Assembly: GCF_010119975.1 (NCBI RefSeq)
Contig: NZ_CP048222.1
Span: forward strand, 5,742,501-5,806,500
Length of the DNA: 64,000 nucleotides
Direction of reading: 5' to 3'
From: Rhodocytophaga rosea
GTDB taxonomy: Bacteria; Bacteroidota; Bacteroidia; Cytophagales; 172606-1
This document shows positions 8,567-29,425 of this stretch, one piece after another. Position numbers and translations under genes: made by a program. How positions within the stretch are numbered: position 1 is the stretch's first letter; the number at the start of each line of letters is the position of its first letter. The notes beneath the pieces are model-generated. The model saw only the letters and a list, made by a program, of their open reading frames with translations, ran no database searches and was not told the origin of the DNA.

Positions 8567-9514
8567 TCAATAATTTATTGCTTTGGGCATTCCATAATTG
8601 GTAATCCATTCATACAGATATTCGGCATCAGCACGTTTGCATAACTCCGTACCGACATTCATAGTGGCAGCTGTTCCGCAGGCTACGCCAAAACGGATCA
8701 TTTCTTCCAACGAACGTCCTCTGGCCAGACTCAATACCATCCCTGCTACCATACTATCCCCGGCTCCAACGGTGCTCCGTTTGCGTACAGTGGGTGCAGG
8801 CACATGCATAGTTTTTTCTTTCGTCACCAGCATAGCACCGCCAGGCCCCAAAGAGACGGCTACTACTTCGCAATTTCCTCTCGCAATAATACTTCGGGCA
8901 TATTTTTCTACGCCATCTGTCTCTATACTTTCTACGCCGGCAAGTTTGCTGAGTTCACCCAGATTAGGTTTTAGCAAGTATACTCCTTCATTGGCAGCCA
9001 AAGCCAGTGGTTCTCCGGAAGTATCCAGAATAAAGCGGGCACCAATGCTTTTGGATATCCGTGCAATACGTGCGAAAAAATCTATAGGTAATCCCAGAGG
9101 AAGACTTCCGCTGGCTACAATGTAATCTGGTTTCGGATGAATACTGGTAAGTATATCCAGACAAGCCTGCCCTTCTGACTCACTTAATCTAGGGCCGGGC
9201 ATTCCAAACCTGAACTGGTGATTAGAAGATGATTCGACTACAATAAAGTTTTCCCTGGTCCAGTTGGCTACAGGAACAGAACTACAATGTACCCCTTCGT
9301 TTTCCAGCAAACTTTGCAGCAACATCCCGGTATGACCTCCGGCCGGGAATATGGCCAGTGATTCTCCTCCTAATTTCCGGATGGCCCGGGAAACATTTAT
9401 ACCACCACCCCCGGCTTCAAACTTTGGTGTTTCACAACGGAGTTTATGTTCGGGCGCAATACGGTCGACGATAGTACTTTTATCTATGGCCGGATTCAGG
9501 GTGAGCGTTACAAT
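8567..9514 (-). pseudogene. pfkB: 6-phosphofructokinase II (PfkB), 5' end severed by an IS
   Basis: Ribokinase-family phosphofructokinase close to E. coli PfkB. It shows KLRCETPKFEAGGGGINVSRA, AIFPAGGHTGMLLQSLLENE, DTSGEPL, KPNLGELS and the C-terminal catalytic motif TVGAGDSMVAGM. The 5' end is cut by an IS3-family element. The ATG and next two codons now lie beyond the IS at 10784-10792. Joining the flanks with one target copy restores MQSIVTLTLNPAIDK in frame. In the present state an in-frame stop lies in the IS just upstream, and the first internal ATG is at 9325. A product from there would lack about 65 residues, including the sugar-binding GGGG motif. The gene is therefore very probably inactive, although the rest of the frame is intact, which points to a recent insertion. 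Confidence 0.9.
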
Positions 9515-9592
9515 AGATTATAGTGTACCCCAAAAATGGGACAGATAGTTAAGATGGAAACTAATAACTTAACTATTTGAAAAATACAACTA

Positions 9593-9880
9593 ATGGAAAA
9601 CAAACGCAAGCGCTACTCAGCCGAGTTTAAGTTCAAAGTAGCTTTAGAGGCTGTTAAAGAAAGACAAACGATAAGTGAGCTGACAGCAAAGTTCGGAGTA
9701 CATTCTACCCAAATAGGTCTTTGGAAAAAGCAACTTTTGCAAGAGGGGATGGAAGTCTTTAAAGAAGAAACCAAAGGGAAAAAAGAAAATCAGCAATCAT
9801 TGTTAGACCGACTATACCAGCAGATTGGCCAGTTACAGGTAGAACTTGACTGGCTTAAAAAAAAATCAGGTGTGGGATAA
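9593..9880 (+). CDS. IS3 transposase subunit OrfA
   Basis: A 95-residue DNA-binding subunit. The helix-turn-helix reads KRYSAEFKFKVALEAVKERQTISELTAKFGVHSTQIGLWKKQ, followed by a leucine-zipper-like tail (LLDRLYQQIGQLQVELDWLKKK) used for multimerisation. Its end overlaps orfB at a run of nine A. As in other IS3 elements the active enzyme should be an OrfAB fusion made by frame change, but here orfB is in the +1 frame rather than the usual -1 frame. Confidence 0.92.
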   Translation: MENKRKRYSAEFKFKVALEAVKERQTISELTAKFGVHSTQIGLWKKQLLQEGMEVFKEETKGKKENQQSLLDRLYQQIGQLQVELDWLKKKSGVG

Positions 9881-18351: not shown

Positions 18352-19755
18352 TTACTTTTTCTTCAGCCAGGAATACTGATTCAAAAACTTTTCTGCCTGG
18401 GTGGGTTGTACCATATGAATGAAAGCCCAATATCCTTGTGCATACCGCTCGGCATCTTTACCTAATTTCTGACTCATAGCGGCACTTCCATTCTTTTCCA
18501 TCTGATGCAGAAATGCCCGGAAACGGCGGATATCCTCACGGGAAACCCTGGGCTCTGTTCCATTTACTACAGCACCAGTTACGGTCTGGCGTTGATGCTG
18601 GCGCATCACGCTAGTTTTTTCCTGGTTAATTTCAAACCCTTCATCTTTGATGATTTTATTCATCAAGCCTAACAGGGATTTGAGGTTATCTTCGGTTATA
18701 TTGGTAGAGAAAACCAAGTCATCGGCATAACGGGTATATGTCCAGTCTAATTTTTCTCCTAATCTGGTGAGGCGGTGATCTAAATAACCTGTATCCCCGC
18801 ACAAAATATTGGTAATGGCTGGTGAAGTACAGGCACCTTGCGGCAGAAAGCGTTCGCCTAAAGCAACAAAATACGCCTTCCCATCCAGGCTGGCTCCAAT
18901 TCTGGTGGCATCGGTACAAACAAGCGCTAATACCGTAGCTATGCCTTCACTGTATCCCCATGATTTGAATAAGCCTTTTACTCTTGGGAATTTAACGGAT
19001 GGGAAAAAATCCTTTAGATCTACCCTTACAACCGTATGCTTACCGGTATGCTTTTCGGCATTATGCCGGATGTTTTTTCCTGGCAAAAACGCCATGGCAT
19101 TGGGGTGAATAGGTCTTTTATTCAATATATTTTCCAATATCCATTGCTGGGCGATACGCAGGGTTTTCTTAGGTGAGGCAATATTGCGCAAGCCTCCCTT
19201 TTTCTTAGGAATCTGAAACCTGGTATAATGATCAATACCTGCTACCCTGCGGTGATACGATAACCAGACCCATTGTTTCATTTCCAGTTTACTGAACTGA
19301 GCCAGATCTTCTAAGGTATGTAAAACCGGTAAACCTGCCTGCGATAATTTTTCTGTATCTGTTTCATCAAACCGCAAGCCTTTGGATACACCTTCGCCCA
19401 GATGATAAGGTGTTTTTTGTTTTTGTAAGGCTATTTCTGCTTTTTTTGCCTGTGATACCCTGGCTTTCTCCACCTTGCGGATGGCCCGTTTGGCTCTCAC
19501 CCGTTCAATGCGGTTTTTGCGGATTTCCTTTAATAATGGCGTAATGTCTTCGGTGCCTTTCAGCTCAATATTCAGCTTTTGCAACTCGCCATTAATCTCA
19601 TTGAGCCTTGTGTAACTATCCTGCAAGGTTTTGTATTGTTGCTGGCTGAGGTCCAGAAAACCCAGCCGGATCATTTCTTCGATTACGAAATAATCGCGGC
19701 CTAAACGCTGGAGCCGTGCCCGCCAGTTTTCTGTGGTAGAAGGAGTAAGTTGCAT
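18352..19755 (-). CDS. Retron reverse transcriptase
   Basis: A 467-residue RT that would copy an msr-msd RNA into multicopy single-stranded DNA. An N-terminal extension of about 170 residues with a charged coiled coil (35-115) precedes the RT core. It carries both retron-specific marks: NAxxH (NAEKH, 232-236) and VTG (392-394, in TVTGAVVNG). Standard motifs are VDLKDFFPSV (245-254), LPQGACTSP (304-312) and the catalytic YADD (343-346). There is no maturase or endonuclease domain, which excludes a group II intron, and no diversity-generating repeats are seen. It is the last gene of the HEAT-SWIM-RT set, 242 bp after the SWIM gene. Both retron marks and the partners make this a confident retron RT; type XIII assignment is from memory. 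Confidence 0.93.
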   Translation of the reverse strand: MQLTPSTTENWRARLQRLGRDYFVIEEMIRLGFLDLSQQQYKTLQDSYTRLNEINGELQKLNIELKGTEDITPLLKEIRKNRIERVRAKRAIRKVEKARVSQAKKAEIALQKQKTPYHLGEGVSKGLRFDETDTEKLSQAGLPVLHTLEDLAQFSKLEMKQWVWLSYHRRVAGIDHYTRFQIPKKKGGLRNIASPKKTLRIAQQWILENILNKRPIHPNAMAFLPGKNIRHNAEKHTGKHTVVRVDLKDFFPSVKFPRVKGLFKSWGYSEGIATVLALVCTDATRIGASLDGKAYFVALGERFLPQGACTSPAITNILCGDTGYLDHRLTRLGEKLDWTYTRYADDLVFSTNITEDNLKSLLGLMNKIIKDEGFEINQEKTSVMRQHQRQTVTGAVVNGTEPRVSREDIRRFRAFLHQMEKNGSAAMSQKLGKDAERYAQGYWAFIHMVQPTQAEKFLNQYSWLKKK

Positions 19756-19806
19756 ATTATAGCTGGTAATGGGTATAGAGTATATAATTGTAATTAATGA
19801 TGAAGG

Positions 19807-19958
19807 TACACACCCCTACCCCTCTTGTTAGAGGGGAATTTGCTCCGTTATTCCTGTAAAACTTTAAACTATTATCTGATGATTTATAATACATTTTATA
19901 GATAAAAAGAGTGGATCGCATATGAATTCCCCTCTAACAAGAGGGGTAGGGGTGTGTA
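19807..19958. repeat. 34-bp perfect inverted repeat (REP-doublet-like) upstream of the RT
   Basis: Arms 19807-19840 and 19925-19958 are perfect complements over 34 bp, separated by 84 bp. Each arm also folds on itself (CCCCTC / GAGGGG with loop TTGTTA). This arrangement of two palindromic units in opposite orientation is that of an interspersed REP doublet. It occupies most of the gap between the SWIM and RT genes and would form a strong hairpin in the transcript, 52 nt before the RT start. Confidence 0.85.
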
Positions 19959-19997
19959 TTTTAGCAAGTGAACATCAATGCATTTCTTATAAGAATA

Positions 19998-21632
19998 TTA
20001 TCTCGCTATCTGAATTAAAGAGGCCATAATATGTGCACAAGGACCCTGGCGTAACTTATTTCTGCGGTGAAAACTACAGGCACATTCGGCAAACCGGATT
20101 CGCCCATCCAGATCCAGGCGAAGGGTAGTTTTATACAAATTTTTGCCTTGCACTTCCAGATGGTATTCTTTGAGTCCATTTTCCAGACTGCTTTTATCAA
20201 TTATGGTTACATGGCCTTCTTTCACCAGGGAGGCAGCATATTTCTGGCGCTCATCTTCTTCGGAATTACTGATTACCATTTCCTGGTTGAGCAATTGCCG
20301 CCAGCGGTAAGTATTATGCAAATGGTCGTACATTGCCTGCCCGTTCCGGCATAACTCCTGTAAAGCAAAAGTGGCAGCAGCCCTGTTTATTTGAAGCACT
20401 TCAGAAACCTGTTGCGGACTGAGGGCTAATTTATCAATCAATAGTTTTTCTACTTGTTTGATGTCTACCTGCAGGGTTTTACCAGCAGAGGCAATCAGGT
20501 CGAAGTTTCCTTTTTTTGCCCAGTCATTGGCTGTCCAGCCGGAAAGTCCTAAGTCGAAACGGTGTCCATCGAGTGCTATGGTCCAGTAGGAGGGCATTCC
20601 GGTACCTAATAATTTTACCTGTACCTGGTCAGTATAGGGAAGTAAATCCTTCAGCGTAAGCAATCTTCTGCGTCCCCAGATGCGGATTTCGCCTTCAAAG
20701 TCTCCCTGATAGGCTAGTGTGTCTTTGATTTCGATATTCCAGGGATCAATTACCAAAGTTGCTGCCTGCCCTTTTTTTAGCAGAAAACGGATGGAACGGG
20801 GGCCACCTTTTTCTTTTCTTTGCTCCAGTTGAGCAATTACCTGAGCCAGTGTCTGAGAGTGAAGAGATAATGAAACGCCCTCAATGGTAGAGGCCGATTG
20901 TACCTGCAAAAATCCCCGTACCCAGCTTTCGGGCAGATCTATTTTTTTCTCTACCGCAGCCCCCACATCTGTAGACAGTTCTACTTTCTCAAAAGCTACT
21001 TTTAACCAGGCAGGACGGTAACTACGAACCCGGTAAATTTCAGCAGCCAGTGCCGCACTGAAATCTATGTTGGTGGTGCCAAAGCGAGTTTCTCCGAACG
21101 TTTGTAACAAATTAGAAGGCACGGTTACCCGGCCATAACTAGATTCATCCTGTGAGAAACATTCAAATATCACGGCATCCGGGTGAACACTGATCACCGG
21201 GTCGAAGATGAATAGCTTCTCCCGGTCGTATTTTCGTACCCATTCATAATATTTACTGCGAGCTGCCCATATTTGTGTACGGATGGGTTTTACAAAGCTT
21301 TCAATGGTTTTTCTTTCTTCTTTCAGCTTGTTTTTCTGCTCATTCAACTTTAGTCTGCCGACTTCCATATTTTTCAGGTGTGCCGGCAGTTCTTCCAGGT
21401 ATCGTTCCTGCACCCAGGCCTGATACGCTGAATGGTCTTTTACTTTGTTTCCCAAGTTACTCAATACTACCTGCCGCATGGCGAGCATAATTCTGGCATA
21501 ACTCAGGCTATTTCCGATCAGTGCATCCAGTTGTACAGGCGGACGGGATTGTTCGGCCGAAAAGTTGAATTGCATGCCATCGGAGGTTGTGGCGACAGAA
21601 CTGGGTTGAGTATAGGATTGGGTAAGTTGCAT
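19998..21632 (-). CDS. SWIM zinc-finger protein of the retron
   Basis: A 544-residue soluble protein. The C-terminus has a complete SWIM zinc motif, C517-x-C519-x12-C532-x-H534 (ECACSFHRRNKLRQGPCAH). Before it, about 400-450, is a helical segment compatible with a winged helix (LSPQQVSEVLQINRAAATFALQELCRNGQ). The first 300 residues are not recognised; residues 85-115 look coiled-coil. SWIM domains bind nucleic acid or protein. Between a HEAT-like gene and a retron RT this fits the WHSWIM partner I recall for retron type XIII. Whether it is effector, sensor or antitoxin is not evident. Confidence 0.82.
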   Translation of the reverse strand: MQLTQSYTQPSSVATTSDGMQFNFSAEQSRPPVQLDALIGNSLSYARIMLAMRQVVLSNLGNKVKDHSAYQAWVQERYLEELPAHLKNMEVGRLKLNEQKNKLKEERKTIESFVKPIRTQIWAARSKYYEWVRKYDREKLFIFDPVISVHPDAVIFECFSQDESSYGRVTVPSNLLQTFGETRFGTTNIDFSAALAAEIYRVRSYRPAWLKVAFEKVELSTDVGAAVEKKIDLPESWVRGFLQVQSASTIEGVSLSLHSQTLAQVIAQLEQRKEKGGPRSIRFLLKKGQAATLVIDPWNIEIKDTLAYQGDFEGEIRIWGRRRLLTLKDLLPYTDQVQVKLLGTGMPSYWTIALDGHRFDLGLSGWTANDWAKKGNFDLIASAGKTLQVDIKQVEKLLIDKLALSPQQVSEVLQINRAAATFALQELCRNGQAMYDHLHNTYRWRQLLNQEMVISNSEEDERQKYAASLVKEGHVTIIDKSSLENGLKEYHLEVQGKNLYKTTLRLDLDGRIRFAECACSFHRRNKLRQGPCAHIMASLIQIAR

Positions 21633-21918: not shown

Positions 21919-24702
21919 TTACTTCAACTCAAAGCCTGGGATTTGTTCGCCGGAAAGAGTGCGTTGGGTAAGTTGCCATATGGCCCATTCGGCATCCTGC
22001 TTTTGCTTGCTTTTTGCCATTTCGAGCAAGGTATCGGTAGCTAAAGTTGGGTTTTGTTGCTGGCGGTGCTTGATGTTTTCTTTGGCTTTGCGGCTTTTGT
22101 TTTTCATGCGCAGTACTTCCTTATCGAAGCGTTGCACAAAAGATGATTCTGCTTGCTGAGTGACTAACTCTTTGGCTACCCAGTTGTGTATGATGGGGTC
22201 GGCATGTTCTGATAAAAACTCGAGTAATTCCAACTGTTTCCGGTCTGTCCACTGCTGTTTCCGTTTATGAAAATAATCCATTCCTAATTTGCGGGTAGAT
22301 GTATTTGGACTGTCGCACATGGCAAGAGTGGCTTCCCATTCTTTGGTAGAACCAGCTTCCAGTGTATCCAGATAGGCAAAAGCGGCTTGCTGGGTGGCAG
22401 GCAGATCGCTTTCCAATAATCGAATGGCGAAGGAAATACTGATCCCCAGGCTGGTAGCTTGTGTGAGTGCCAGGTTCCGGATGGATGGTAGTTTGTGAAT
22501 ACTGGCCTTATATAACTGAGCAGAATCTTTTGTAAAGATATTCAGATGTTTCTGCATCCATTGGCTAAGTAATTCTTCGACTGCAGGATGTTGTATCTCT
22601 AATATTTCGGAAGTGCTTTTCTCCAGAAACAGCTGCCTGAAGGCTTCATCCTGGAATAAGCGGGTAAGTAATAGATCGCCTGCCTCTGATTCTATTGCTT
22701 TTTGTAAGGCTTCACGCCAGAATAAACCAGGTTGTGCTACGTTTTTGATTCGATTCAGCACAGGTTCTTTTACCAGAAGCCAGGTGTCGTTGTGCAACGA
22801 AGCAAGTAATTCGAGTAAACTGGAAGGAGACGCATTGTTTAGTAAACTGGTAACAATGCTTTTATCTACACTTATGATTAGTTTAGGTTGTGTAGCCAGT
22901 AAGTGTCCGGCTTCCTCCAGAAACCATTTTTTTCGCTGTTCATCTTTCAACAGCGGCAGGTTGGTGAGCAGTTTTTGAAGGATAGCTGGATTGGCAGCCG
23001 CAGACTGAAATATATCTTTTACATAATCCCGTAGTACGATGCTTTCCTCCAATAGATAAAAAAGTATTTTCCAGAAAGCTTCATTGCCGCCATTTTCCGC
23101 CTGTTGTACGGTATAGAAGAAAGCGTTTCCAGCAAATATATGAATCGTCCGGATGGCTGGAGCAGCTCTTTGTAATACGTCTTTGCGTATAGCTTCTGAA
23201 CAATGGCTTAGTAAAGGCAACCATCTAAGAGGCTCCTGTTTAAAACCTTGCCATAATTTCTGGAACAGGAATTTCTTGAATGCATCATTACCCCTTTCCA
23301 GAATAAAAACATATGCCTGATGAGGGAAACGGGTATTATCTGTTAATTCATAATCATAGTTCTTATAATATTTCTCAAATAACTCGGCTGCAGAACCAGA
23401 CTGGATAGTATTCATTAAGTGAATCTCCAGTTTGGGCTGTTTTACACCCTTATACAGTTTTTCCCAGAAAGGCTGCAACATATAATAATTGTTCTGGAAA
23501 TTGTTTTTTAATAGATCCCACCCAAATTGACAAACAATAAATGCCGGATGAAAAATAAAGGGCTTTGCAGTATCGGCAGATACTCTGGTATTTTTGAATT
23601 TATAGGTGAACAGTTGTGACAGCCGGGCTAATTGGTACTCTTTTGAGGCAGCGTTGAACCAGTTGAGAGCATCTTCTTTGGCTGCTTTTTCTGCGGAAAC
23701 TAGTGTCCATTCTTCCAGATCTTTTATGCCGGAACTGAATAATATAGCTGCTATTTCTAAAATCTTACTGGCTTCCAGCTGTTGCTTCAAGTTTGCATGC
23801 AAAAATTGCAGTAACTCATTCGCTCTTCTGGAAGAAGATTCTCCTGCGGAAAGTTCGATTACCTGCTTGTGTAAGTAGGTGGCTACTTCTTCCCGCCAGG
23901 CGTTGGGTTGTTGACTAATATTTGATTGTAGAAACTCCTGTTGTGCCGCTTTAGTGCCATAGGCAAAAGTGCCAGCCCATTCCAATGCTGTCAGGCGTTT
24001 GCCTTGTTTATATTCACTGTACGTTTGCTGAGCAGCGGTTTGTTTGAGAATGAGGGATGGTATGTTGAAAAAACGGCTGATCTGTTCGCCTGAAAATACT
24101 GGCAACTTTTGCGTGTTACGAGTCAGGATTTTTACGGCAAATTCCTGGATAGGCCAGGGTATATTTTTGGAAAGCAATTGCCGGATGAAATCAATATGAG
24201 CATCCCATACCTGTGGCCGCCTTTCTTCGGGTTCAGGCAGCTGGTAAGTCATACTTTGGAATACAACTTTGCCACGGCCATGTCCTTGATGTGTAAGCCT
24301 GGGAGAATTTCCCAGTAGTATATCGGCGATTACCCAGCGGTAATTAAAATTTAGCTGAGTTCTATTTTCGCAGGCTGAAAGAATTTGAGATGTGATCTGA
24401 AAATACAGCGCATCATCTTTGAGTGTATTCAGAAAACGTCTGGCCCGGCGTTTCATATAGGCCATTGTTTTCTGGGTAGGATATGTTTCCTGTAACCCTT
24501 CAATCGTAGACTGATCTATGGCATGGATAATGGATGCAGTAATGGCTGCATCCTGAGTAGTTTCGTATTGTTTGTAAATGGTTTTGAGTACTTTCCAGTG
24601 ATCTGGAGCAATAGGAGCGGTACGGATGTAGTTGAGTAAAGTTTGCCTTTCGATTTCGTTGGTGGCAGGAATAATGGCAAGCAGATCAAGCGGCTGGTTC
24701 AT
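21919..24702 (-). CDS. HEAT/ARM-like helical repeat protein of the retron
   Basis: A protein of 927 residues from the ATG at 24702; a TTG two codons upstream is less likely. It is almost entirely helical with no membrane segment. Repeated helix pairs such as SPSSLLELLASLHNDTWLLVKEPVLNRIKN, STSEILEIQHPAVEELLSQW, SIRNLALTQATSLG and STRKLGMDYFHKRKQQWTDRK look like divergent HEAT/ARM repeats, best kept in the C-terminal third. The C-terminus is basic (RMKNKSRKAKENIKHRQQQ). It is first of the three retron protein genes and lies directly after the candidate msr-msd RNA. As a scaffold it may bind the RT-DNA complex and the SWIM protein; no enzymatic motif is seen. Confidence 0.72.
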   Translation of the reverse strand: MNQPLDLLAIIPATNEIERQTLLNYIRTAPIAPDHWKVLKTIYKQYETTQDAAITASIIHAIDQSTIEGLQETYPTQKTMAYMKRRARRFLNTLKDDALYFQITSQILSACENRTQLNFNYRWVIADILLGNSPRLTHQGHGRGKVVFQSMTYQLPEPEERRPQVWDAHIDFIRQLLSKNIPWPIQEFAVKILTRNTQKLPVFSGEQISRFFNIPSLILKQTAAQQTYSEYKQGKRLTALEWAGTFAYGTKAAQQEFLQSNISQQPNAWREEVATYLHKQVIELSAGESSSRRANELLQFLHANLKQQLEASKILEIAAILFSSGIKDLEEWTLVSAEKAAKEDALNWFNAASKEYQLARLSQLFTYKFKNTRVSADTAKPFIFHPAFIVCQFGWDLLKNNFQNNYYMLQPFWEKLYKGVKQPKLEIHLMNTIQSGSAAELFEKYYKNYDYELTDNTRFPHQAYVFILERGNDAFKKFLFQKLWQGFKQEPLRWLPLLSHCSEAIRKDVLQRAAPAIRTIHIFAGNAFFYTVQQAENGGNEAFWKILFYLLEESIVLRDYVKDIFQSAAANPAILQKLLTNLPLLKDEQRKKWFLEEAGHLLATQPKLIISVDKSIVTSLLNNASPSSLLELLASLHNDTWLLVKEPVLNRIKNVAQPGLFWREALQKAIESEAGDLLLTRLFQDEAFRQLFLEKSTSEILEIQHPAVEELLSQWMQKHLNIFTKDSAQLYKASIHKLPSIRNLALTQATSLGISISFAIRLLESDLPATQQAAFAYLDTLEAGSTKEWEATLAMCDSPNTSTRKLGMDYFHKRKQQWTDRKQLELLEFLSEHADPIIHNWVAKELVTQQAESSFVQRFDKEVLRMKNKSRKAKENIKHRQQQNPTLATDTLLEMAKSKQKQDAEWAIWQLTQRTLSGEQIPGFELK

Positions 24703-24729
24703 ACGCAAATAATTGATCGTTATTTTATT

Positions 24730-24749
24730 GGCAACTCATGAAAGTTGCC
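24730..24749 (-). other. Small leader hairpin before the HEAT gene
   Basis: GGCAACT and AGTTGCC pair around a 6-nt loop, 28 nt before the ATG and after the terminator at 24770. Only a read-through or separate transcript would contain it. It could tune translation of the retron proteins. Confidence 0.4.
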
Positions 24750-24769
24750 TTTAATTATTCAATACAGAT

Positions 24770-24801
24770 AAAAAAGCCTGCAAGGGTTGAAGCTTGCAGG
24801 C
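24770..24801 (-). terminator. Intrinsic terminator directly after the candidate retron RNA
   Basis: On the minus strand GCCTGCAAG, an 8-nt loop and CTTGCAGGC are followed at once by six T. The hairpin starts 7 nt after the a2 arm of the candidate msr-msd RNA and 68 nt before the HEAT start. It would give the RNA a discrete 3' end and reduce transcription into HEAT-SWIM-RT. Confidence 0.85.
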
Positions 24802-24807
24802 GATGGT

Positions 24808-25063
24808 ATTGTTGAAATTTTTGTTACTAACTCTGCACAGGATTATCTTTCATTACTGTAAGCGGGTGGAGCTACCCATGGGTAGTAATTAGTCTAGACC
24901 AATTGAGCCACTGCTTATTCAGCGATTTTCTAACGAATTACTACCCATGGGTAGAGGAGCACGCTGAATGGCATGAATGTGTAATGAAGTATGAATAGCT
25001 TAACTACAACCACGGCGAAACACCGCAGCATTTATGCTAACAAAAACTTATATTTTCAACAAT
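24808..25063 (-). ncRNA. Candidate retron msr-msd RNA
   Basis: A 256-nt stretch with retron RNA order on the minus strand. The a1 arm (25063-25038) is ATTGTTGAAA, a 7-nt bulge, then TTTTTGTTA. The a2 arm is TAACAAAAATTTCAACAAT (24826-24808). They pair over all 19 bp of a2. Directly after a1 comes TTAGC, so G at 25037 is the candidate branching guanosine. An msr hairpin (CTGCGG, loop TGTTTCG, CCGTGG; 25028-25010) follows. The msd base is TTCATTAC (24988-24981) with GTAATGAA (24856-24849). Its main stem is a perfect 19-bp repeat, 24954-24936 with 24890-24872. A terminator follows a2. Position upstream of the retron genes supports the call; transcription and RT-DNA are not shown. Confidence 0.78.
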
Positions 25064-25257
25064 GAGAAAGAACGTTTGATAAGGCGAGTTTAGGGGAATT
25101 TGTCATAAAAATAAAACTATTTTGTATTTTATTTTTTGCTAACCTAGCCATCATAATTATGTGATTTTTATTGTAAATATTTGTTGGTTAACTATTTATA
25201 GTGTAGGTTGATCTGGATGTTTGCTATTTATAAAATTTCATTACATCTCCATTGCAA

Positions 25258-26163
25258 TTACCCTATAAATTGCTTTACCAAAGGTAAAACTGCTTTCTGC
25301 ATATCCATTCCAAACTTGTTGAATACTGCTTTTTCTCCATTTTCAAACGTGAGTTCAATCTGGAAAATATGGGCATTGTCTACTTCTAACTGTGTTGTCT
25401 GGAAGGCTACACCAGAAGCTTCTTTTTTCAATGTTTTCTCTCCTAACAATTGCGCACTGTCGTATTTGATAGTAGTAGTATTCCAGTTAGGCTGAGATAA
25501 AACCTGGGTCAGATTTTGCCGGGAAAGCGATATATTCCAGGTAAAAGTATAGCCAGAATTTTTAGTGAGAAGTTGATTGGCTACTTGCTCTTTTTTTGTC
25601 ACATTAAAATAGCCAATGCTGCAACTGACTGGCGTTTTGCCCAGTAAATGTCCATACTTTTGCCGGAACTCCAGAGGAGGCCTTGGGTCGCTTGCCTGAG
25701 AAAAACCTTGCTGTGTTTTTTCAGCCATCAAACGGTTAAGTTCCTTAATAGCCAGGCTGTTTTTATAGAATTCAAATTGTTCCTGATTGCCATCTGTACC
25801 TATTTTTCCGCTGTAAATAGTAATGGATCTTTTCTCTGCCTTTGCTTCCCAGAATTCCTGCCCCAGTTCCATGTACACATGTTTTACTTCATTAGTATCT
25901 GCTCCGAACGAGTGCACATTAAACTTACCATTATTGCGGGAAGATAAATTATCTTGGCTTACAATAGCATTTACCATTTGCGATACCTGGTCCTGAAAAG
26001 CCTGAAAGCCCAGTCGGCGTAATTCATTTTTTACATCCAGTGTGGTAGTCGACTGATTCTGAGCTATCAGGTTATATACTACTTCCCGTACATCGTCAAT
26101 GGTATGTGTTTTCATGGAGTTATTGGAGTTACCCAGTAAATTATTCAGGATGCGCTTGATCAT
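25258..26163 (-). CDS. WGR-domain protein
   Basis: A 301-residue soluble protein. The middle (about 95-155: VYMELGQEFWEAKAEKRSIT then YSGKIGTDGNQEQFEFY and ELNRLMAEKTQQGF) matches a WGR domain, a module found in PARPs and bacterial DNA-associated proteins. The N-terminus (20-85) looks like a small helical DNA-binding domain (IDDVREVVYNLIAQ, LDVKNELRRLGFQAFQDQV). The C-terminal 130 residues are not recognised. It lies 107 bp after the WGR-PARP gene in the same direction and ends 194 bp before the candidate retron RNA. It may act with the PARP at nicked or damaged DNA. Confidence 0.72.
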   Translation of the reverse strand: MIKRILNNLLGNSNNSMKTHTIDDVREVVYNLIAQNQSTTTLDVKNELRRLGFQAFQDQVSQMVNAIVSQDNLSSRNNGKFNVHSFGADTNEVKHVYMELGQEFWEAKAEKRSITIYSGKIGTDGNQEQFEFYKNSLAIKELNRLMAEKTQQGFSQASDPRPPLEFRQKYGHLLGKTPVSCSIGYFNVTKKEQVANQLLTKNSGYTFTWNISLSRQNLTQVLSQPNWNTTTIKYDSAQLLGEKTLKKEASGVAFQTTQLEVDNAHIFQIELTFENGEKAVFNKFGMDMQKAVLPLVKQFIG

Positions 26164-26270
26164 AAGGAAAGGCCAATAGTCATTGGTATTCTGCCTTCAG
26201 AAAGATACTAAAAATTCAAAAATTCTAATTCACAGTTTTCACAAATGACCAATGACTATTGACCAATAAC

Positions 26271-27506
26271 CTAATTTCTCACTTCGATCAGGTATTGAAT
26301 GGCACACTGAGCCTGGTTGTACACAATATATTCATTATTGCGCAGATCAGCACCGCCTTCGGCAAACAGAGAATCCAGGTCTTTGCCTTTTTTCTTCAGA
26401 TTTTCCTCCGTTAACTCATAACACCAGGCTGGTTCATGTTTCTGAATATGTAACTGTTTGCCTACGTGTACTTTATACAATGCTAGAAACCCACGGTCAG
26501 CGCTGCCCCTGGTCCAGTAGGAGCCGGAGAGAGAACTGTAGTTTAAAGATTTGCGGAATTTATCTGCAAAGTATAGTCCATAGCCAAACATTTTTCCGGT
26601 AATTACCGCATTCGCCGGGCGCAATACCAGACCAGTTTCCATAATAGAAATCCAGTTTTCGTTGCGGCTTCCATGCCAGAATAGTTCTTCCTTTTTATTG
26701 GGTTTAGCCGTAAACCATTCTTCATAGGCTTTCTGGCTTTTATGATTTTTTACCTTAAATGCCCGGTAGAATTTGCCTGCTTCTTCCTGCATCTTATCTT
26801 TAATCATCTCAATAATCTCTTTCTCTGTAACCGGCTCCACTTCCAGACCCATCGTTTGCAGAATATTGATCTTTTCTTTCTTGCCTTCAGTTGCTTCTTT
26901 TTTCCGGGCATTAATATCTACCTGTCCGCGCATTACGTCAAGGGTTGCCTGTTCATCGGCCAGTACTTTTTCTATCGCGTTTATTTCTTCCTTGGTAGCT
27001 GCCGACTGAATGAGATGGTCTTTTACATTGCCCATTTTCCGGGGAATAACTGCAAATAAACGCAGCAACCCATCATTGAAATCCTTCAGATCCATGCCCA
27101 CTTTTATTTTCGCTACCACATTATCCAGCAAACGCTGTGCTTCTTCTACCTGCTTTTTAGTAACCTGTTCAGCCGTTACGTTATAGTTGGCGCTTACCGA
27201 TTTTTTAGCATACTGCATCAGCATATTAATAAATTCCTGCACCGCCGGGTTATCTACATCTGCCAGTTCTATTTCGTCATCACTGTCTACAAACAGGTGT
27301 GTCTGGTCTTTATAACCTTTGTTTACTTTTTCACGATATTTTTTCTCCCATTCCCGCACAGGATAGGTCTGATACGCAGGTGTTCCGCCAACCCGGCCAT
27401 AGGAAACTTTAAATGTGCCGTCGGCATTTTCTTTCATTTCGTAAAACTTGTTGTTGTTGTCGGAAGTAACCATAATCAGTTTTACCGTCCGTAGATTGGT
27501 ACTCAT
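26271..27506 (-). CDS. Bacterial PARP: WGR, regulatory and ADP-ribosyltransferase domains
   Basis: A 411-residue poly(ADP-ribose) polymerase-like enzyme that should transfer ADP-ribose from NAD+ to targets. Domains in order are a WGR domain (about 5-70, with KVSYGRVGGTPAYQTYP), a helical PARP regulatory domain (85-215) and the catalytic domain (225-411). The H-Y-E triad is intact: His278 (LFWHGSRNENW), Tyr312 (GYGLYFADKF) and Glu392 (LRNNEYIVY). Glu at the third position is compatible with polymer formation, as in PARP1. There are no zinc fingers, so DNA sensing would rest on WGR. It pairs with the WGR gene downstream and an ADP-ribosylglycohydrolase 1.1 kb away, and lies next to a retron. 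Confidence 0.92.
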   Translation of the reverse strand: MSTNLRTVKLIMVTSDNNNKFYEMKENADGTFKVSYGRVGGTPAYQTYPVREWEKKYREKVNKGYKDQTHLFVDSDDEIELADVDNPAVQEFINMLMQYAKKSVSANYNVTAEQVTKKQVEEAQRLLDNVVAKIKVGMDLKDFNDGLLRLFAVIPRKMGNVKDHLIQSAATKEEINAIEKVLADEQATLDVMRGQVDINARKKEATEGKKEKINILQTMGLEVEPVTEKEIIEMIKDKMQEEAGKFYRAFKVKNHKSQKAYEEWFTAKPNKKEELFWHGSRNENWISIMETGLVLRPANAVITGKMFGYGLYFADKFRKSLNYSSLSGSYWTRGSADRGFLALYKVHVGKQLHIQKHEPAWCYELTEENLKKKGKDLDSLFAEGGADLRNNEYIVYNQAQCAIQYLIEVRN

Positions 27507-28642: not shown

Positions 28643-29425
28643 ATGCTAGGGGCAATTATTGGCGATATTATCGGTTCGGTATATGAAAAAAGCGGAATGA
28701 AAAAACCGGATTTCCCTCTCTTTGACACGGATTGCCGCTTTACGGACGATACCGTTATGACGCTGGCCATTGCCGATGCTTTGCTGCACAAACGAATATT
28801 CCGGAACAATATCCGCACATTCGGGCTCAATTACCCCAACAGGGGCTATGGCGGTATGTTCCGGGAATGGTTGCAGACAGAAAATGCCAAACCGTATAAT
28901 AGTTTTGGAAATGGCTCTGCCATGCGGGTGAGTCCGGTAGGATTTGCCTGTAAGGAAATGGAAGAAGTACTGGATCTGGCCCTGAAATCAGCCGAACCTA
29001 CACATAATCATCCGGAGGGTATCAAAGGTGCACAGGCAGTGGCCGCAGGTATTTTCTTAGCCAGGCAGGGAAAAAGTAAAGAAGAAATCCGTACGCATAT
29101 AGAAGATACGTTTGGATATAATTTGCACCGGACGGTAGAAGAGATTCGTCCCGGCTACCAGTTTGATGTGACATGCCAGGGTTCTGTACCCGAATCTATT
29201 ATTGCTTTTCTGGATAGTGAGGATGTAGAAAGCGCCATCCGGTTAGCTGTTTCGCTGGGTGGAGATGCCGATACAATGGCTGCTATTGCTGGTGCCTTAG
29301 CTCAGGCGTATTATAAAAAAATCCCACTTGACTTTATTTACCGCACTAGTCAGATTCTCACGCCTCCCTTGTGGAAAATCGTAGTGAGTTTTAATAAGAA
29401 GTATCAGATTTCAACTTCTAAATAG
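28643..29425 (+). CDS. ADP-ribosylglycohydrolase family protein
   Basis: A 260-residue DraG/ARH-type hydrolase that should remove ADP-ribose from proteins or other acceptors. Metal-binding acidic motifs are present at both ends of the fold: GDIIGSVYE (about 7-15), RFTDDTVMT (32-40) and the C-terminal GGDADTMAAIAGALAQA (about 212-228). The central HNHPEGIKGAQAVAAGIFLA is typical of the family. It is on the opposite strand from the PARP, 1.1 kb away, so a writer/eraser pair is plausible but co-regulation is not shown. Confidence 0.9.
   Translation: MLGAIIGDIIGSVYEKSGMKKPDFPLFDTDCRFTDDTVMTLAIADALLHKRIFRNNIRTFGLNYPNRGYGGMFREWLQTENAKPYNSFGNGSAMRVSPVGFACKEMEEVLDLALKSAEPTHNHPEGIKGAQAVAAGIFLARQGKSKEEIRTHIEDTFGYNLHRTVEEIRPGYQFDVTCQGSVPESIIAFLDSEDVESAIRLAVSLGGDADTMAAIAGALAQAYYKKIPLDFIYRTSQILTPPLWKIVVSFNKKYQISTSK

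Follow-up and report, generated by a model that had tools for sequence, protein, structure and literature searches.

Which RNA is the template of the retron reverse transcriptase (RT) encoded in the window, the stretch of 64,000 nucleotides of the Rhodocytophaga rosea genome analysed here, and does this RNA have to lie beside the RT gene? The window encodes a type XIII retron, reportedly a class in the scheme of Mestre et al. (2020), as shown by the PADLOC scores of its RT and SWIM proteins, which are encoded on the minus strand together with a HEAT protein that matches only weakly. The RT (18352–19755) matches the RT_XIII model with an e value of 2.9e-154 and 512.5 bits, with the next family reaching 287.8 bits, and the SWIM protein (19998–21632) matches SWIM_XIII with an e value of 8.9e-170 and 563.6 bits. 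The HEAT protein (21919–24708), which is 929 aa long from a TTG start with a later ATG being possible, gives weak matches to WGR_XIII (5e-19) and HEAT-ARM_XIII (6e-19). YADD, NAxxH, and VTG are hallmarks of retron RTs. The window RT has YADD, NAEKH, and VTG, and among the RTs of its lineage NAxxH and YADD are present in 14/14 and VTG in 13/14, with LTG in the remaining one (G772); the RT and SWIM protein of a related locus (L048) likewise match RT_XIII and SWIM_XIII. The genome is a single contig of 8.98 Mb, and this RT is present in it in one copy. In minus-strand order the locus consists of a PARP gene (27506–26271), a WGR gene (26163–25258), a structured stretch (25063–24770), HEAT (24708–21919), SWIM (21632–19998), and RT (19755–18352). 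Our reading is that 25063–24770 is very probably the msr-msd RNA of a type XIII lineage and the template of the RT, as a unit independent of the RT gene; production of RT-DNA is inferred. This reading rests on the RT_XIII and SWIM_XIII scores, the RT motifs, the stability of the fold, a homologous locus, covariation, and the co-occurrence of the RNA with the retron genes.

An initial annotation made from the sequence alone had proposed an a1-msr-msd-a2 unit on the minus strand here, and most of its elements held. In the MFE fold the a1 arm (25038–25063) pairs with the a2 arm (24808–24826) over 19 bp with one 7-nt bulge, as had been claimed. A G lies immediately 3' of a1 at 25037 in an AGCA context, and the G, C, and A of this motif are invariant in 26/26 units (alignment A4). 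Known retrons have a branching G after a1; a branch at G25037 is inferred from them, and the branch chemistry is likewise an inference by analogy. The msr hairpin, placed at 25028–25010 with a TGTTTCG loop, was confirmed there as a 9-pair helix with a TTT loop (25009–25029). All 19 of the 19 positions proposed for the inner msd stem pair (24936–24954 with 24872–24890), the two arms being hypervariable between units, and the claimed T-run terminator corresponds to an intrinsic-terminator-like hairpin with a 10-bp stem, an 8-nt loop, and a T run (about 24802–24770). The outer msd stem held only in part: the proposed pairing of 24988–24981 with 24856–24849 is possible, but homologues correct the register to 24977–24973 with 24853–24849. 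The corrected stem lies outside a conserved msd base helix formed by AGCG (24965–24962) opposite CGCT (24864–24861), which is followed by a conserved TACAG (24860–24856). We also observed that in many units ATTCAGC in the msd base (24962–24970) and GCTGAAT in the loop of the hairpin are complementary, possibly allowing an alternative pairing.

A 311-nt region containing the RNA folds at −95.2 kcal/mol compared with a mean of −64.5 kcal/mol (sd 5.35) for 100 dinucleotide shuffles, none of which folded as well (z −5.7). Searches against Rfam 15 gave no match at the gathering score in the window and only three chance-level matches (E 2.5–3.7, searched to E 5) in 24700–25260. In a SWIM-guided search that returned 16 loci we identified a metagenome-assembled genome (MAG) locus, L010, with the same RNA-HEAT-SWIM-RT order. 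Its RNA retains TTTGTTAGC, the msr hairpin, CATTCAGCG, and CGCTTACAG, differs from the window in the sequences of a1/a2 and of the msd arms while keeping their pairing, and folds with a z of −9.2.

Comparison of homologous units shows that matched changes on both sides preserve pairing in the msr hairpin, a1/a2, and the msd stems. In the msr hairpin 91.7% of cells are paired, 37 cells are doubly changed, and the covariation score is 0.53, each of which was reached in 0/500 shuffles; the numbers of doubly changed pairs (175/500) and of pair types (427/500) do not exceed those of shuffles. The remaining helices were analysed in 24 units, a set that excludes one degenerate unit (L122_9467), one without a hairpin (L129_6143), one cut by a contig end (L118_5688), and two near copies of L121 units (L122_9195 and L122_9788), and that never included the weak matches L118_5497 and L133_3023 or the canonical L132 units. 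The a1/a2 statistics come from an anchored stem finder, the first automatic finder having given poor stems for some units. An a1 arm pairs with its own a2 at 10.7 of 14 positions on average versus 8.2 (sd 0.30) for permuted partners (0/5000), and within arrays of units 9/20000 permutations reach the observed total. Pairing is not private everywhere, as the L128 units and L123_9566 pair equally well or better with another unit. For the outer msd stem, in-register offsets give z values of 6.8–8.1 against permuted partners, whereas among 12 slid offsets the best reaches 4.1 and the others range from −2.5 to 2.8. The msd base helix is kept in 24/24 units as AGCG or AGTG opposite CGCT, CGCC, or CACT. 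A lack of compensatory changes among homologues, which the initial annotation had named as grounds for refuting the retron RNA, was thus not observed: the msr, a1/a2, and msd base stem covary.

To determine the distribution of the RNA we used two covariance models, R1, built from the 84-nt msr of the window and L010, and R2, built from 26 units and applied with stricter filters by which weak matches may be lost. A search with R1 near the SWIM genes of 37 sources revealed no further RNA, the remaining matches having E values of 0.39 or worse. When R1 was used against whole genomes (21 entries, with G658 and G770 being one genome entered twice), the RNA was found in 15 of 16 distinct genomes with a SWIM gene of this lineage and in 0/4 genomes with only canonical SWIM (G040, G024, G004, and G082). 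The one exception, G771, is a fragmentary MAG in which SWIM, RT, and PARP are present and no RNA was matched. The R2 survey of the order covered 390 genomes and detected the RNA in 14, namely all 13 that encode a lineage SWIM (547–599 bits in this survey) and G169, a genome that is 79% complete and in which SWIM was not found at E 1e-60. A Fisher test of this association gives 2e-23, kinship being uncorrected. A lineage-type RT was identified in 13/15 genomes searched and as a 43% fragment in a 14th (G771); the lineage RNA and SWIM of G115 are accompanied only by a canonical RT. Covariation and this co-occurrence with SWIM and RT support the earlier proposal that the RNA is the template of the RT at 18352–19755, with RT-DNA still inferred.

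These data also bear on the possibility that the structure has no relation to the RT and is a mobile palindrome of the MITE or REP kind. Long tandem palindromes at unlinked places would fit such an element. However, the 9-Mb genome of the window contains one copy of the RNA, three helices covary, presence of the RNA tracks the SWIM lineage, and copies differ in their arms while keeping their flanks. We consider this explanation all but excluded and return to the retron RNA reading.

The RNA is not adjacent to the RT gene in the window, HEAT and SWIM lying between them, and the initial annotation was correct that it is displaced to a position upstream of HEAT; this placement recurs in five relatives (L010, L121, L122, L123, and L126), giving 6/15 lineage genomes in which HEAT directly follows the RNA. 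HEAT is 4 kb from the RNA in another (L125, genome G185), no HEAT was found beside the RNA in 7/15 (G097, G128, G177, G088, G115, G123, and G061), and in G152 the contig ends beside the RNA. We observed separately that at four loci (L005, L006, L007, and L050) neither HEAT nor RT was found close to a lineage SWIM. Regulation of HEAT in cis, with the structure acting as a leader or attenuator, would account for the placement seen in the six genomes, but the terminator closes the RNA ahead of HEAT, nearly half of the lineage genomes have no HEAT beside the RNA, and the RNA co-occurs with SWIM and RT. A cis-acting leader is therefore very unlikely.

We find instead that the RNA accompanies the SWIM and RT genes of the lineage even when it is on another contig. 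Among 14 RNA-bearing SWIM-lineage relatives, the RNA is on a different contig than SWIM in 12 and on a different contig than RT in 11, G115 being without a lineage RT. All 14 are draft genomes, and because most relatives are draft MAGs, some of this separation may be an assembly artefact. In G658 the RNA contig and the SWIM-RT contig share at least 100 bases at their ends, and the two are therefore probably neighbours; in G772 RNA, SWIM, and RT are all in one place. Clear unlinked cases are few. They are G088, in which RNA (C62), SWIM (C57), and RT (C2) are each more than 30 kb from contig ends, G102, in which RNA and HEAT are on C34 more than 40 kb from an end and SWIM and RT on C28 9 kb from an end, and, for SWIM, G061. 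In two genomes (G185 and G128) RT is also on another contig than SWIM, and in G115 the lineage RT was not found.

It could also be argued that the RT in fact copies a different structured part of the locus, for example the SWIM-RT gap (19756–19997). This gap is a near-perfect inverted repeat that folds with a z of −7.6 (40 shuffles), and canonical type XIII loci have the RNA directly upstream of RT. Yet the gap is without any conserved msr feature, R1 gives no match there, part of it is found again elsewhere in the genome (G000:C1:5923168; 33 nt, 88%), and the corresponding gap is merely 13–120 nt in L003, L004, L010, L048, and L051. It looks like a small repeat element, and its being the template is very unlikely. 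A 17-bp inverted repeat (z −6.9) was also noted in the PARP-WGR gap (26164–26270).

With 25063–24770 taken as the retron RNA, its relatives also depart from a one-template plan. Tandem arrays of three or four units are present in 5/16 RNA-bearing genomes, with four units in G140 and G185 and three in G047, G102, and G061; G128 and G088 have two units each on different contigs. Within arrays msr identity is 0.73–0.99 and hairpin arm identity is 0.26–0.59, mostly like that of shuffled arms. The msd stems have 19–29 bp, and mean arm identity is 0.45 both within arrays (18 pairs) and between genomes (258 pairs). Similar arms with matched changes on both sides were read by eye in L127/L130 and in L120/L125_6547. 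A search of phage DNA to E 0.1 gave no match to the window RNA or to the L125 array, and there is thus no sign that arms were copied from the phages searched. The element TAnnTTTG, the −7 box of Bacteroidota, is present no more than 40 nt ahead of the branching G in 9/17 first or solitary units versus 1/13 inner units (a 40-nt limit chosen after inspection; the chance is about 0.06 per 77 nt). Neither the window unit nor the L010 unit has this element. The pattern is compatible with one transcript per array starting at the first unit, which we regard as a possibility.

The arrays can be interpreted in two ways. In the first, the RNA is a retron RNA and the arrays arose by ordinary duplication, their palindromic stems losing and regaining pairing neutrally, without any repertoire function. 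In its favour are a unit without an msd hairpin whose base is joined (L129:6143–6225) and the degenerate second unit of the L122 array (9195–9869), the first unit of which has a 3' arm end resembling unit 2 of L121, a chimera that is likely the result of recombination between units. Also in its favour, the identity of some arm pairs from the same array exceeds that of shuffles (0.59 versus 0.44, sd 0.06), and unit 3 of G047 and unit 3 of G102 have the same arm, which indicates that arm turnover is not fast. Against it, 586/593 arm positions are Watson-Crick pairs while sequences are unrelated between units, the pairing figure being partly by construction since arms were picked as the best inverted repeats. 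Word use is also biased, GGTA being present in 18/22 non-redundant msd arms versus 9.3 in dinucleotide shuffles (0/400), albeit as the best of all 4-mers and picked after looking. In addition, GTAC is present in 10/22 arms (4.4 expected). GGTA was rejected as a word of type XIII as a whole, canonical arms having it in 9/22 and not among their top words against dinucleotide shuffles. On balance the evidence leaves neutral duplication a little short of an even chance. The second interpretation takes the differing hairpins as a hint that one enzyme makes several sensor DNAs. In this bolder reading, a repertoire retron, an RT encoded elsewhere would act on a multi-unit transcript whose units have private a1/a2 and different hairpins, and the cell would display several msDNAs, every one of them acting as decoy or sensor for a different phage factor and all coupled to the same SWIM, HEAT, and WGR-PARP effectors. 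We put it forward tentatively as a single joint proposal that is less likely than not.

The genes upstream of the RNA are possible additional parts of the system. They encode a stand-alone WGR protein (25258–26163, minus strand; Pfam WGR 3e-7) and a WGR-PARP protein (26271–27506, minus strand; PARP 5e-26, and WGR at 0.0015, below its cut-off). In canonical type XIII loci an N-terminal WGR is fused to the HEAT protein in 3/3 tested, and the protein of one canonical locus (L060) matches WGR_XIII over its length, unlike the HEAT protein of the window, which has no WGR domain by Pfam. WGR relatives are found in 11/17 RNA- or SWIM-lineage genomes versus 0/7 others, and WGR-PARP in 11/14 RNA genomes versus 24/376 others of the order, kinship being uncorrected in both comparisons. 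A 64% homologue of WGR-PARP lies, with a WGR gene, between SWIM and RT in L009. PARP as a strict part was rejected on account of the 24 of 376 genomes that have it without the RNA. Membership of WGR and WGR-PARP in the system is thus possible, plausible without being proven. An ADP-ribosylglycohydrolase beside the PARP gene (28643–29425, plus strand; Pfam ADP_ribosyl_GH 1e-36) is a weak candidate. We also observed the same WGR-PARP-ADPRH neighbourhood without retron genes nearby at L151 (G097).

The lineage resembles canonical type XIII retrons in its RT and SWIM families, in having a HEAT protein, and in the plan of its RNA, which combines a1/a2 with a long msd palindrome and a GC hairpin whose loop is TTTCG-like. 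It differs in that its SWIM proteins share only 33–38% identity with the canonical ones from the order, its RTs form their own group (support 98/97), WGR is separate from HEAT, and its RNA has another consensus (R1 scores of 43–109 bits versus 18–28 bits for canonical RNAs) and lies upstream of HEAT or unlinked rather than directly upstream of RT. Tandem msr-msd units are not exclusive to the lineage, as two-unit arrays are present in 4/27 canonical loci with a detected unit among 38 scanned (L066, L176, L183, and L132); unlike those of the lineage, these are upstream of RT and have a higher arm identity (0.50–0.80). Eco1, Eco2, and Eco8 share the a1-msr-msd-a2 plan, the branching G, and the RT motifs with the lineage. 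They have one RNA adjacent to RT, and their effectors differ. Adjacency of template and RT, common in known retrons, is not needed for the mechanism. No RT relative was found in viral contigs, where three PARP relatives (34–37%) were detected, and SWIM was found in seven plasmid records with a best identity of only 34%. New here are the RNA unlinked from SWIM and RT and the tandem arrays with differing msd stems. The titles and abstracts searched contain no description of retron arrays or unlinked templates; a prior description is not excluded, as Mestre 2020 and the 2024 retron census were outside this search. No report of the type XIII effector was found in the literature searched.

In the mechanism that we propose, the lineage RT would bind the RNA, prime from the 2'-OH of G25037, and copy the msd into hairpin DNA. 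By extension from other retrons, the RT-msDNA complex would keep an effector silent, consisting of SWIM and HEAT and possibly also of WGR and WGR-PARP, and disturbance of the hairpin by a phage factor would end this silencing. In the array-bearing relatives one RT would make several msDNAs with common handles and a different duplex in each. The lineage is likely a multi-template, partly dispersed type XIII retron, its msDNA being inferred from sequence. The usual picture of a retron is a compact cassette whose single template adjoins the RT, and this is the arrangement that defence finders search for. A lineage with an unlinked and multiplied template would be missed or called incomplete. If WGR-PARP is indeed a part of the system, one candidate for the output of type XIII retrons is ADP-ribosylation. 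The arrays, with constant handles and different duplexes, allow the purpose of the msDNA stem to be asked about directly, and their units are naturally orthogonal templates with which one RT could make several DNAs.
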